In this document: positions 1,420-14,124 of the stretch, one piece after another
Position numbering within the stretch: position 1 is the first letter of the stretch
Layout of the letters: each line of letters starts with the position of its first letter
NCBI RefSeq assembly: GCF_000737325.1
Contig: NZ_CP011125.1
Coordinates: forward strand, 9,995,945 to 10,059,944
DNA from: Sandaracinus amylolyticus
GTDB lineage: Bacteria > Myxococcota_A > Polyangia > Polyangiales > Sandaracinaceae
DNA length: 64,000 bases
Reading direction: 5' to 3'
Notes under the pieces: generated by a model
Seen by the model: only the letters and a program-made list of their open reading frames with translations
What the model was told of the DNA's origin: nothing
Database searches by the model: none
Program-made: the position numbers and the translations under genes

Positions 1420-3170
1420 CTCGGCTCCGCGCTCTCGCACAGCCGCGCGAGCACCTCGATGCGCGGCACCTCGGTCGCGATCCAGTACATCGCCGCGCGT
1501 TCGATCCCGCGCGCGAACGCCTCGTCGCGGCCCGCGATCGCCGCGCTCATGCGCGTCCACATCCACGCGATCGCGAGGATCGACGCGAGCTGCAGGTAGT
1601 CGGCGCTGTGCGCGAGCATCCCGTTCACGTCGCCCTTCATCCCGCGCGCGCCGAGCGCGCCGGTGAGCGCGACCACGCGCTCGAGCGCATCCCGCACCGA
1701 CTGGGTGCGCGCGCGATCGACGCCCGCTTCGTCGGCGCGCGCGCAGTCCGCGAGGATCTCCTCGCGCCACGTCATGATCGCCGCGCCTCCGCCCGCGACG
1801 ACCTTGCGACCCAGCAGATCGAGGCTCTGGATCCCGGTCGTCCCCTCGTGGATTGAGTTGAGCTTCTGATCGCGCAGCCACGACTCCGGCAGGTACTCCG
1901 ACGAGTAGCCGTAGCCGCCGTGGATCTGCACCGCGAGCGCGTTCGACTCGAAGCCGTACTCGGCGGGGAAGCTCTTCGCCATCGGCGTCAGCAGATCGAG
2001 CAGCAAGCGGCTCCGCTCGCGCAGGCTCGGATCGGTCGCGTGCTCCGCGAGATCGGCGTACTTCGCGCTCGTCGCGAGCAGGCAGAGCGCGCCTTCGACG
2101 ATCGCCTTCTGGCGCAGGAGCATGCGCCGCACGTCGGCGTGCTCGACCAGCGGCACCGGGGGCGTGGTCGCATCGACGACGCCGAGCGGACGTCCCTGCG
2201 TGCGCTCGCGCGCGTAGGCGAGCGACTCGTGGTACGCGACCGACGCCGTCGCGGTTGCGTTCACGCCGACCATCAGACGCGCCTCGTTCATCATCTGGAA
2301 CATGCAGCGCAGGCCCGAGTTCTCGGTGCCGATCAGCCAGCCGTGGCAGTCGTTGCGATCTCCGAGCGCGAGCGCGACCGAGGGCAGGCCCTTCCACCCG
2401 ATCTTGTGGATCACGCCGCTGATCGACACGTCGTTGTCGACCCACGCGTCGCCCTCGCGACGACGCTTCGGCACCGCGAACAGCGAGATGCCCTTGGTGC
2501 CCGGAGGTGCGCCGTCGATGCGCGCGAGCACGAGGTGCACGACGTTCTCGGTCACGTCGTGATCGCCGCCCGAGATGAAGATCTTCGCGCCGCGCAGGAG
2601 AAAATGACCCTGGTCAGTTCGCGTGGCGCGCGTCTGCACGTCGGCGAGCGACGAGCCCGCCTGGGGCTCGGTGAGCGTCATCGTGCCGGTCCAGCGCCCC
2701 TCGTAGAGGGGCGCCATGAACGTCTGCTTGGTCCACGCGTCGCCGAACGCCTCGATCAGGTGCGCCGCGCCGGTCGTGAGCCCCGCGTAGCCGTACGCCG
2801 AGAGATTGCCGGCCATCAGGTACGCGCTCGCGAGCGTCGACACCGTGAGCGGCAGCTGCTGACCGCCGACCGACGCGGGGCGCGTCGACGCGATCACGCC
2901 GAGCTCCGCGAGCTCCTTCCAGATCGCGCGCATCGCCGGATGCACGCGCACCTGCCCGCCCTCGAGGCGCGGCGGCGCTTCGTCCATCGCGCGATAGGTC
3001 GGGAAGAGCACCTCGCGCGCGAGGCGACGACACGCGCCGAGCCAGAGGTCGAACGTCTCGCGCTCGTGATCGGCGAACGCGGGCAGCGCAGCGAGCGACG
3101 GCGCGTCGAGCACGTCGTAGAGCAGGAAGTCGACGAAGCGATCGGAGATCAGCGGGTTCGCGCTCGGCAT
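1389..3170 (-). CDS. Acyl-CoA dehydrogenase (DmdC/FadE-like, long form)
   Basis: A 593-residue flavoprotein predicted to make the trans-2,3 double bond in an acyl-CoA, passing electrons to ETF. The middle-domain signature [10 protein letters not shown] is at residues 166-174. The IHEGTTGIQ segment (440-448) carries the presumed catalytic base, Glu442, followed by SLDLLGRK. The roughly 130-residue extension after residue 460 is the extra C-terminal domain of long acyl-CoA dehydrogenases, the class that includes 3-methylthiopropionyl-CoA dehydrogenase. The chain-length specificity is not evident. It is transcribed alone and divergently from the prenyltransferase gene, with a 68-bp gap that must hold both promoters. 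Confidence 0.9.
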
Positions 3171-3238
3171 GCGCGCACGCTAGCACCGCGATTCGCGCAC
3201 CGCGCGCCCGACCGCGGCGGTACCATCGCGGCCCGCTC

Positions 3239-4177
3239 GTGATCCGCGCTCTCTGGACCCTCGCCCGCCCCAAGGGGATGGTGCTCATCGCGTTCCTGCC
3301 GATGATCGGCTTCGGGTTCGCGTACTGGGATCACGGCTGCCGCATCCCGGGCTTCGGCGCGCTCGCGCCGCTCGGGCTCCTCGCGACGGTGTGGGCCGTG
3401 CCGCACATGGGCACGATGTGGCTGAACGCCGCGCTCGATCGCGACGAAGGACAAGTGCTCTTCGGCAAGAGCGTCCCGGTCCCGCCCGGCGTCGAGAAGT
3501 ACGCGTACCTGACGCTCGCGTTCTCGCTCGTCGCCGCGTTCGTGACCGACGTGGGCCTCGGCCTGTGCGTGCTCGGCTGCGCGATGCTCTCGGTGCTCTA
3601 CTCGCACCCGCGCACCGCGTGGAAGGGACACGCGATCCTCGGCCCGCTCGCGAACGCGATCGGCTACGGCGTGCTCTCGCCGCTCGGCGGGTTCCTGCTC
3701 TCGGATCTGCCGCCGACCCCGCGCGGCGCGGCCACGCTCGCGCTGAGCGTCACGTACATCGTCGCGGCGTACCTCGCGGCCCAGGCGTTCCAGGAGGACG
3801 AGGATCGCGCGCGCGGCTATCGCACCCTCGTCGCGCTGCGCGGCGCGCGGTTCACGCTCGACGTCACGCGCGCATTCCTCGCGCTCTCGGTGATCCTCAC
3901 GCTCGTGCTCGCGGCGATCGGCTGGTACCCGCGGCTCGTGCTCCTCGCCGCGCCGGCGTTCCTCGCGGCCGAGCGCTATCTCGCGCGATGGCGCGACGTG
4001 CCGGGCGGCGGCGATGGATCGTGGGCCGCCGGGTTCTTCGTGCGGATGATGATCGCGGGGCTCGTCTGCATCGTCGCGGTCTCCGCCGACTACGGCTGGA
4101 GCCAGCTGCGCGGCGAGCCCGCGGGGGGCGTCGCGACCGCGTCGGGGCGGCCTGCCACACCGGCGTGCGGCGGCTGA
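3239..4177 (+). CDS. UbiA-family prenyltransferase
   Basis: A 312-residue integral membrane protein with about eight hydrophobic segments. It has the two Asp-rich motifs that bind Mg-diphosphate in this family: NAALDRDEG (N63, D67, D69) and a second, QEDEDRARG, at about residues 185-193. Between them lies the YSHPRTAWKG loop. Relatives transfer polyprenyl groups to aromatic or other acceptors (quinones, haem O, chlorophyll, archaeal lipids); the acceptor cannot be told here. It starts at a GTG 68 bp from the divergent acyl-CoA dehydrogenase. No Shine-Dalgarno sequence is obvious. Confidence 0.85.
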   Translation: MIRALWTLARPKGMVLIAFLPMIGFGFAYWDHGCRIPGFGALAPLGLLATVWAVPHMGTMWLNAALDRDEGQVLFGKSVPVPPGVEKYAYLTLAFSLVAAFVTDVGLGLCVLGCAMLSVLYSHPRTAWKGHAILGPLANAIGYGVLSPLGGFLLSDLPPTPRGAATLALSVTYIVAAYLAAQAFQEDEDRARGYRTLVALRGARFTLDVTRAFLALSVILTLVLAAIGWYPRLVLLAAPAFLAAERYLARWRDVPGGGDGSWAAGFFVRMMIAGLVCIVAVSADYGWSQLRGEPAGGVATASGRPATPACGG

Positions 4178-11412: not shown

Positions 11413-14124
11413 TCAGGGCGTCTCCTCGGCTTCTTCCTGCTCTCCGAGGGTCTCGCTGTAGCGCGTCATTTCTTCCATCGTGACGTTGCCGTCGCAGTTC
11501 AGGTCCTCGGGCGGCTCGCATCGCGGCGTGGGCGCCTCCTCGGCCGCTTCCTGCTCCGCGAGGATCTCCCCGTAGCGCGTCATCTCGTCGATCGTGACGT
11601 TGCCGTCGCAGTTCAGATCCTCGGGCGGCTGGCACTGCGGGACGAAGCCCATAGGAGCTGCTTCTTCCTCGTCTTCCTCTTCGCCGACCTCGCCGGTCTC
11701 GACCGGCGCCGGTGCCTGCGGCGCGGGCGGCGCGCCCGCGATCCAGCGCCCGAGGTCCGCGCTGATCGGCGGGTAGTACGTGATGATCAACAGGCCCACG
11801 CACATCATCGCGATGAACGGCAGCACCGCGCGGATCAGGTACGTCAGCGGCTTGTTGAACAGCGTGCTCGCGACGAAGAGGTTCAGCCCGACCGGCGGCG
11901 TGAGATAGCCGATCTCCAGGTTGACGATGAAGACGATCCCGAGGTGCAGCGGGTCGATCCCGAGCGCCGCGGCCATCGGTGCGATCAGCGGCACGCACAC
12001 GAAGATCGCGCTCATGATGTCCATCAGACATCCGACCACGAGCAGCGCGAGGTTCAGCACGAGCAGGAACGTCACGCGATCGAGGTCCATCGAGCGGATC
12101 CACTCGCCCGCGGTCGCCGGGATCGACTGATCCTCGAGGAACTCCACGAAGCTCATCGCGACCACGAGGATCACGAGGAAGCTCCCGAGCATGATCGCGG
12201 TCTCGCCGAAGATCTTCGGCAGCTCCTCGAGCTTCAGCGCGCGGTGGATGTAGACCTCGACGATCACCGCGTACACGACGCTGATGCACGCGGACTCGAT
12301 CGCGTTGAAGATGCCCGCGTAGATCCCGCCGAGGATCAGCCCGGGGAACATCAGCGACCAGATGCCGTCGCGCGTCGCGCTCACCAGCTGCGCGACCGAG
12401 AACGTGTCGCGCGGCGTCTTGTCGACGACGCCGCGGAACAGCGAGTAGCCCATCAGGATCCCGCCGATCACGATGCCGGGGCCGAAGCCCGCGGCGAACA
12501 GCTCCTCGACGCGGATCGACGCCTGCGTGTTGACGATCGCGTAGACGATCATCGGGATCGACGGCGGGATCAGGATGCCGAGCGAGCCCGCGCTCGTGAC
12601 GAGGCCGTGCGCGAACGAGGGCTTGTAGCCCTGCTTGATCAGCGCGGGCGCCATCATGCCGCCGATCGCGACGACGGTCGCAGGGCTCGAGCCGCTGATC
12701 GCCGCGAAGATCATGCACGCGATGACCGCGCTGATCGCCATGCCCCCGGGCAGCCATCCGACGAGCGCGCGCGCGAACCCGATGAGCCGCGCGCTGATCT
12801 GACCGCGCGCCATGATCGCGCCCGAGAGGATGAAGAACGGGATCGCGAGCAGCGCCTCGTTGTCGGCGATCGAGACGATGCGCTCGATCAGGATCGAGAA
12901 CTGCGACGCCTCGGTGCGCCCGCCCCACAGCAGGAACGCGACGACCGTCATCGCGCCGAGCACGACGAAGAGCGGCTCCGCGAGCAGCACGCCCGCGAGG
13001 ATCACCGCCGCGAGCACGCCGCCCTTGCCGAGCAGCGGGAGCAGCACGACGAGCCCGAGCACCACGAAGAACGCGATCGGCTTCTTCGCCGGCTTCGCTT
13101 CGGTGCTCGCGCTCTCGGGCGCCTGATCCGCGGTGAGCGCGTCCGCCTCGGCGGCGAGCTTCTCCGCGTCGTCCATGCCCTCGGCCTTCGCGGGCGCGCC
13201 GTAATTGCCGCCGAGCACCGCGCTGACCGCCGCGCCGAGGAACCGCAGTCCGCTGACCACGAAGAGGATCGGGATCGCCGCGGTGCGGATCCACATCGGC
13301 ATCCCCGAGAGGTCGAGGTTGCCGCCGATGAAGAACGCGCCGGTGCCCGGCGCGAACACGTAGAGATACCCGAGGTACGCGAGGAACAGGCTGAAGAGCG
13401 CCGCGATCAGGTTGGACACGCCCGCGACGAGGTGCTTCGCCTTCTCGGGGTGCGACTTCTCGAGCGCCTCGAGCCGGATGTGCTTGCCTTCGTGCACGCA
13501 CAGAGACGCGCCGAAGAACCCGACCCAGAGGGTCACGGTCATCGCGATCTCCTTCGACCACGTGTACGCGGTCGGGAACGCCGACGACGCGACCAGCGCG
13601 ATCAGCGGCGTCGCGATCGCCGCCGCGATGCCGAGGCGCACCTGCCATCCGGGCGCGCGCGCGCGCAGCTGTCCGCTCGCGAAGAGCGAGAGCCCGAGCA
13701 CGACGAGCACGAGGTAGACGAGCTGCGAGCTCGTCGTGACCATCAGCACGCCGATGCCCGCGACGACCGCGGCGATCAGCAGCGCGACGATCAGCGCGCT
13801 GCCCTTCACCGCGAGGATCGGCGCGCCGCGGCTCTTCTCCGACGCCGCCACGCCCGCGTAGAGGATCGCGACGCCGAGCACGCCGCCGAGCCACGGCGCG
13901 ATCGCCGCGCGCGTGCTCGCGTCCGCGACGATCTCCGAGAGCCACTGCGAGATCTCGCTCTCGGGCGCGATCAGCTGCCGGTAGATGACGTCGAGGAAGA
14001 CGATCACCGTCATCACGACGAGCATCAGCGCGACGAGCCCTTGCTCGATCGTGAACACCGCGTCGTCCGCGCGACGGATGACGGACCTGTGCGTGGCGTC
14101 GGGAGCCCCTGCGTTCGACGACAT
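11413..14124 (-). CDS. Fused DctQ-DctM TRAP transporter permease with duplicated EF-hand-like tail
   Basis: A 903-residue polytopic membrane protein. Residues about 20-310 are the small DctQ-type subunit, with SKEIAMTVTLWVGFFGAS and CVHEGKHIRLEAL. A hydrophilic Ala/Glu/Lys linker (310-348) joins it to the large DctM-type subunit (about 350-790). TRAP permeases use an ion gradient to take up organic acids caught by a periplasmic DctP, but no dctP is in the window. Unusually, an acidic linker leads to two near-identical 35-38-residue repeats (831-868, 869-903). Each holds DLNCDGNVTxxE, a canonical EF-hand loop (D1, N3, D5, G6, E12). The DNA of 11416-11634 is correspondingly duplicated. Confidence 0.88.
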   Translation of the reverse strand: MSSNAGAPDATHRSVIRRADDAVFTIEQGLVALMLVVMTVIVFLDVIYRQLIAPESEISQWLSEIVADASTRAAIAPWLGGVLGVAILYAGVAASEKSRGAPILAVKGSALIVALLIAAVVAGIGVLMVTTSSQLVYLVLVVLGLSLFASGQLRARAPGWQVRLGIAAAIATPLIALVASSAFPTAYTWSKEIAMTVTLWVGFFGASLCVHEGKHIRLEALEKSHPEKAKHLVAGVSNLIAALFSLFLAYLGYLYVFAPGTGAFFIGGNLDLSGMPMWIRTAAIPILFVVSGLRFLGAAVSAVLGGNYGAPAKAEGMDDAEKLAAEADALTADQAPESASTEAKPAKKPIAFFVVLGLVVLLPLLGKGGVLAAVILAGVLLAEPLFVVLGAMTVVAFLLWGGRTEASQFSILIERIVSIADNEALLAIPFFILSGAIMARGQISARLIGFARALVGWLPGGMAISAVIACMIFAAISGSSPATVVAIGGMMAPALIKQGYKPSFAHGLVTSAGSLGILIPPSIPMIVYAIVNTQASIRVEELFAAGFGPGIVIGGILMGYSLFRGVVDKTPRDTFSVAQLVSATRDGIWSLMFPGLILGGIYAGIFNAIESACISVVYAVIVEVYIHRALKLEELPKIFGETAIMLGSFLVILVVAMSFVEFLEDQSIPATAGEWIRSMDLDRVTFLLVLNLALLVVGCLMDIMSAIFVCVPLIAPMAAALGIDPLHLGIVFIVNLEIGYLTPPVGLNLFVASTLFNKPLTYLIRAVLPFIAMMCVGLLIITYYPPISADLGRWIAGAPPAPQAPAPVETGEVGEEEDEEEAAPMGFVPQCQPPEDLNCDGNVTIDEMTRYGEILAEQEAAEEAPTPRCEPPEDLNCDGNVTMEEMTRYSETLGEQEEAEETP

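Follow-up and report, generated by a model that had tools for sequence, protein, structure and literature searches.

The permease gene and its domains

The window, i.e. the whole stretch of 64,000 nucleotides of Sandaracinus amylolyticus DNA that was analysed, carries on its reverse strand a gene coding a membrane protein with the following features:

11413..14124, (-) strand: fused DctQ-DctM TRAP permease with a C-terminal tail, 903 aa (translation; Pfam DctQ and DctM and NCBIfam TIGR00786 over cut-off)
13216..13578, (-) strand: Pfam DctQ domain, residues 183-303 (E 3.3e-17)
11767..13005, (-) strand: Pfam DctM domain, residues 374-786 (E 1.6e-98; model compared with SiaM 7qha_B)
11413..11733, (-) strand: C-terminal tail from residue 798, an acidic Pro-rich linker and two repeats (sequence; low model confidence)

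The fusion of DctQ and DctM followed by a C-terminal extension, reported in a preliminary description of this DNA, stands. DctQ scores 63 bits (curated Pfam cut-off 28.3), DctM 330.7 bits (cut-off 23.8), and NCBIfam assigns the product to the TRAP large permeases (TIGR00786). A model of the whole protein (39 sequences) has a mean pLDDT of 83, with low confidence for both tail helices, and matches SiaM (7qha_B) with a TM-score of 0.91 by target length. By its domain scores and its fold match to solved TRAP permeases the 903-aa product is a TRAP permease (DctQM). It has the DctM fold and sequence in common with the fused permeases SiaQM and IseQM (7qe5, 8thi, 8y4w, 9pym) and with SiaM 7qha, but the matched part stops at residue 787-797, with the tail lying beyond, and the model adds four helices in Q. 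These are placed between DctQ helices 1 and 2 (residues 69-99, 109-130, 133-155 and 160-182), in the region that spans window positions 13576-13956 (residues 57-183). Their even number would leave the topology predicted for the protein as it is. The Q genes of tailed relatives are likewise long, coding about 290-390 aa.

The C-terminal tail and its EF-hand-type loops

Behind the last membrane helix follow the acidic linker and the repeat units CQPPEDLNCDGNVTIDEMTRYGEILAEQEAAEEAPTPR and CEPPEDLNCDGNVTMEEMTRYSETLGEQEEAEETP, in which these features were located:

11584..11619, (-) strand: EF-hand-type loop 1, DLNCDGNVTIDE, residues 836-847 (sequence; weak Pfam EF-hand_1 match of the isolated tail)
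11470..11505, (-) strand: EF-hand-type loop 2, DLNCDGNVTMEE, residues 874-885 (sequence; weak EF-hand_5/_7 matches)
11578..11595, (-) strand: conserved motif copy 1, TIDEMT, residues 844-849, putative helix start behind loop 1 (conservation in relatives)
11464..11481, (-) strand: conserved motif copy 2, TMEEMT, residues 882-887, putative helix start behind loop 2 (conservation in relatives)
11416..11526 and 11530..11640, (-) strand: DNA repeat copies (86% identity over 111 nt)

The duplication at the DNA level had been noticed before, and the repeats had been called near-identical; the term suits the loops and is too strong for the whole unit, whose two copies are identical at 27 of 35 residues. 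An EF-hand loop has 12 residues, with ligands at positions 1, 3, 5, 9 and 12 and a Gly at position 6. Both loops fit this pattern, and each unit carries one Cys inside the loop and one ahead of it, as expected from the earlier reading of a complete EF-hand-type loop plus Cys in each repeat.

The profile search that had been advised for the tail gave scores below the curated Pfam cut-offs, both for EF-hand_1 (E 0.013; 15.5 bits, cut-off 25.4) and for Dockerin_1 (E 0.36; 11.5 bits, cut-off 22.9). Its top PDB sequence match is the calcium-binding protein 2jnx (E 8e-4), followed by chain B of 5lxv (E 9e-3), listed as a carbohydrate-binding protein and presumably a dockerin, and then by obelins (E at least 0.02). 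The tail is thus like EF-hands and type I dockerins in its twelve-residue loop, usual ligand pattern, predicted helix behind the loop and presence in two copies, but differs from them by its Pfam scores, by a long linker between the copies and by the apparent lack of a helix ahead of the loop. The sequence PP before the loop would leave no E-helix, and a helix is seen behind the loop only, in the low-confidence models of the whole protein and of the tail folded alone (a poor model, pTM 0.24). In the window's own genome no second close match to the tail was found (next E 0.3). A pairing of dockerin and cohesin was considered and given up, with the weak Dockerin_1 score and no cohesin match (E ≤1) in that genome. 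Docking, one of the functions first suggested, was a good guess, but because of this missing cohesin, together with the profile score, an attachment of the dockerin type is unlikely.

A helix motif conserved in the tails of relatives

Tails were compared among DctM relatives from genomes of the same order and the same class, plus the best 80 of 554 named public contigs. This gave 111 distinct sequences, of which 47, scoring 350 bits or more against the DctM core of the window, were treated as close relatives; the Ignavibacteria-titled L138, with a 6-residue tail, passes 350 bits and was excluded before this count. Absence of the tail from orthologues, named in the preliminary description as a reason to abandon its reading, is not what is seen, since 45 of the 47 close relatives have a tail of at least 50 residues, the exceptions being L130 and L134.

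The pattern [ST]-phi-x-[EDQ]-[LMI]-[MT] is present in 43 of the 45 long tails (it is missing from L126 and L135), with two or more copies in 24 and 79 copies overall. In shuffled tails (2000 rounds) a copy was found in 0.29 tails on average and in three of 45 at most, figures that tell how striking the motif is and are no independent test because the pattern was written after these tails had been seen and the rows are related to one another. The consensus reads G-x-x-[ST]-[LM]-E-E-M-M-R-E-A-E, examples from relatives being GVQTLEEMMREAE, MPTMEEMMREA, VKSLEEMMREAKEK, EKSLQELMQEAKQK and PKSISELMKSDAFKKA, next to GNVTMEEMTRYSE from the window itself. Among the other 63 of the 111 sequences, 13 have longer tails without the motif and 50 have tails of 12 residues or fewer. 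When 38 related genomes were searched with the motif, nine of the 13 hits (E ≤1) proved to be permease tails; the remaining four, outside such tails, had E values of 0.126 to 0.88, which is chance level.

The EF-type loop occurs in only six of the 45 long tails, all from genomes of the window's family. Its G6, S/T9 and E12 coincide with the G (position -3; 42 of 79 copies), S/T (position 0) and E (position +3; 68 of 79 copies) of the motif, and this overlap makes the loop an apparent elaboration of the motif's helix cap. Judged from these counts, the conserved unit of the tail is the putative helix start behind the loop and not the EF loop itself.

Membrane side of the tail

The side on which the tail lies had been left to topology prediction. 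In the portion of PMC11801797 that was available, the C-terminus of FnSiaQM is placed in the periplasm by the authors' inference, without direct observation, and basic residues precede the last helix of the window's permease, which fits a cytosolic start and a periplasmic end of that helix. By homology and by these residues the tail is probably periplasmic. According to the accessible text of PMC9352664, the last of the 15 membrane helices of HiSiaQM belongs to the inner bundle, taken here to be the elevator domain. With a periplasmic end and a last helix in the moving domain, the tail would hang from that domain and lie on the face used for docking by the binding protein.

Occurrence of the tail together with TatT

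A set of 130 distinct complete DctM sequences was sorted by the presence of a tail and by the presence of TatT and DctP in the fetched locus. Assignment to the window's own group or to other phyla follows record titles, which are vague in some cases ("Deltaproteobacteria bacterium", "uncultured bacterium"), and the class assignment of genomes, and absence of TatT means absence from the fetched stretch. Sequences are called window-type at 350 bits, scored by blast for the motif count and by profile here; since the two scorings differ, L021 and L024 are window-type in the present sorting only.

None of the 53 relatives titled as other phyla has a tail, including six with TatT and DctP adjoining. 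The idea that every TatT system needs a tail is ruled out by these six loci. For the 73 sequences from the window's class or its named close relatives, TatT is in the locus of 24, and 23 of these permeases are tailed; the lone tail-less case is L245, whose TatT lies on the opposite strand. Eight of the 73 are tail-less (L242-L248, L258), seven of them without TatT in the locus. Tailed permeases without TatT in the stretch comprise 25 window-type sequences (neither TatT nor DctP), 11 with short flanks and six others; of these six, L021, L022, L024 and L030 have TatT on the same contig, L026 and L259 do not. Among the 25, at least L219 (genome G120) has a DctP gene beyond its stretch, about 2.3 kb off. 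Lineage is uncertain for four rows: TatT comes without a tail in L130 and L134 and with a tail in L122, and L135 is tailed but shows no TatT in its stretch. Both kinds coexist in genome G007: the permease on contig C127, next to DctP alone, is tail-less, while those on C70 and C65 are tailed, with TatT and DctP adjoining the C65 copy. The link between tail and TatT may reflect subfamily ancestry alone.

Putative partner genes elsewhere in the genome

No TatT or DctP gene was found in the stretch of 18.7 kb around the window's permease (L093), which is thus not encoded with such partners in the manner of TPAT, the TatT-TatP-TatQM system of Treponema pallidum. The same holds for window-type permeases of the order: 17 surrounding stretches of 6.5-18.7 kb, several truncated by the end of a contig, showed neither DctP nor TatT. 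For relatives from other families, a single locus combines TatT, DctP and M (nine rows), or DctP lies on the same contig within a few kb (e.g., G077, G144, G110, G061).

By the searches made, the window's genome codes four DctP, three TatT and two permeases. A TatT-DctP-QM set is found near 8.21 Mb, and TatT-DctP pairs without a permease in the fetched stretch lie near 5.288 and 0.575 Mb. The pair near 5.288 Mb, composed of a PF16811 TatT and a DctP, is about 4.7 Mb from the window's permease. In a search of 289 genomes, its DctP type (E ≤1e-50) was found in 38 of the 41 genomes with the permease (E ≤1e-120) versus 27 of the 248 others (Fisher p 2e-26, a value inflated by shared ancestry). The three permease genomes without this DctP type are G006 (TatT only, at a contig end), G016 and G167 (no match); in at least two (G043, G053) of the 27 genomes that have this DctP type but lack a permease match at E ≤1e-120, the permease is present as split matches. 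In the DctP tree the 5.288-Mb protein belongs with operon DctPs to a 35-row group (96/97), and the other three DctPs of the genome to an 8-row group (100/100). Its nearer join to particular operons is weak (80/34) and does not fix its closest operon kin. Homology and co-occurrence make this TatT-DctP pair the likely partner of the window's permease. The second pair (G000:C1:575373-577311) and a lone DctP (G000:C1:835649-836488), whose fetched stretch likewise shows no permease, are candidates for sharing a permease.

A rough lipobox scan gave a candidate in 21 of 27 TatT proteins from orphan pairs and tailed operons, and in 20 of these 21 a short motif such as AAWEE or AKWDE was read by eye behind the Cys. 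Stretches like AAWEE, AKWDE or SVFDE after the putative lipid-bearing Cys are present in the 5.288-Mb TatT (L192, about 2650-3590) and in TatT of L122-L139 and L195-L209; such stretches were not seen in TatT of the tail-less systems L130, L134 and L138. A conserved third neighbour gene was considered as tail receptor; clustering of neighbour genes, which used gene calls by GC content at codon position 3 that missed some TatT and DctP genes, gave none conserved beside both operon and orphan loci.

A possible docking function of the tail

The 903-aa permease may form the transmembrane component of a TatT-associated TRAP importer (TPAT), with TatT and DctP as soluble components coded at other sites of the genome. 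Motif copies carried by an acidic, flexible chain on TatT-linked permeases are best read as a set of docking sites. In this reading the tail would act as a tether, acidic and flexible, in which the putative amphipathic helix motif G-x-x-[ST]-phi-E-E-[ML]-M-[RK]-x-A is present one to four times. These copies would bind reversibly to a soluble partner, with TatT or its complex with DctP as the most likely candidates, and thereby hold the binding protein close to the permease. The genus of the window and genera close to it would have gained a Cys pair and a DxNxDG stretch ahead of the motif, converting its helix cap into an EF-hand-type loop, and Ca2+ and a disulfide would pre-fold the motif helix in these Sandaracinus-like genera. 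Docking, the identity of the receptor and Ca2+ binding are what we infer here. Taken as a whole, a TatT-associated permease whose periplasmic tail of repeated docking motifs recruits TatT-DctP, with Ca2+-type loops as a lineage-specific cap, is a tentative reading that has a serious chance of being correct. A bolder version appears quite unlikely: the tail would be a multivalent periplasmic leash whose repeated motifs catch TatT-DctP, TatT being perhaps an outer-membrane lipoprotein, one orphan permease would serve soluble modules encoded anywhere, and in Sandaracinus-like genera Ca2+ and a disulfide would fold the motif and render docking responsive to the state of the periplasm.

According to the consulted part of PMC5812351, some of the TatT helices resemble TPR motifs, and the way in which TatT meets the permease is presented there as a suggested model only. 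In other systems, TPR proteins that bind short acidic M-E-E peptides are known, and TPR co-chaperones bind MEEVD tails. A TPR-type partner and a short acidic Met-Glu-Glu client peptide would by analogy work alike here, although the MEEVD systems are not periplasmic.

We consider it unlikely that the tail acts as a spacer or clustering element by docking on something other than TatT or DctP, such as peptidoglycan, a protein of the outer membrane or a second copy of the permease. Orphan loci without a conserved third gene beside them or beside the operons would allow a receptor encoded anywhere; the tail nevertheless accompanies TatT systems within the window's group.

The calcium-dependent role centred on the EF loop that was proposed at first is improbable. 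It would make the loops the working unit, periplasmic Ca2+ gating or regulating the importer, and the motif merely the second half of an EF-hand. Every ligand position is kept in all six loop-bearing tails, the best PDB matches of the tail are Ca2+-binding proteins, and DxDxDG-type stretches, some of them separate and ahead of the motif, occur in 13 of the 45 long tails (shuffled tails: mean 2.0, maximum 8). Against this role, the loop is absent from 39 of the 45 tails while the helix motif is kept in 43, the Pfam scores are below cut-off and PP before the loop would leave no room for an E-helix. Least probable is a partnerless, low-complexity acidic extension growing by repeat slippage: the repeat of 111 nt with 86% identity in the window and the 30% D+E content of the long tails fit it, but the motif is kept across families with differing linkers, from Archangium-titled to Sandaracinus-titled records, and in genome G007 a tail-less permease coexists with tailed ones.

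Relation to known systems

TRAP permeases, TatT systems and EF-type loops are already known kinds; a description of such a tail on a TRAP permease was not found in the open-licence literature. TPAT of T. pallidum (TatT is PF16811, structure 3U64) is the nearest parallel to the docking reading: PF16811 TatT and DctP are likewise the likely partners of the window's permease, and other-family relatives likewise have TatT, DctP and M in one locus. The window's system would differ by the repeat tail of its permease and by a distance of about 4.7 Mb between its genes. The sterol-binding BstC belongs with TatT to the T-component superfamily and, in the available text of PMC10942540, has high structural similarity to Tp0956; the likeness is limited to the superfamily of the permease's likely partner.

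A conserved and repeated permease motif that goes with TatT systems in one group is a concrete peptide to test for binding. With the permease separated from its soluble partners, it becomes possible to test if several binding proteins are served by a single TRAP permease, and the EF-type loop illustrates a way in which a helix cap already present may acquire a Ca2+-type site.

Tails of other permease families

The tails of a second permease family carry other repeats (TLDDLDM, SFEEFEARC, DEDLFREMM). One pattern tried for them did not work: the repeats differ and are perhaps not equivalent, and a function in common with the window-type tails is a guess. The second fused permease of the window's genome (L111:6734-9646, about 8.21 Mb on G000:C1), near its own TatT and DctP, ends with three repeats of the CDLPRENESFEEFEARC type that are bracketed by Cys. 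Within the order, permeases from two further families (L252, L253, L254, L257) have terminal repeats such as EDDLLKDMLK or DEDLFREMMGAG, one copy of which lies at the extreme C-terminus in L252-L254.
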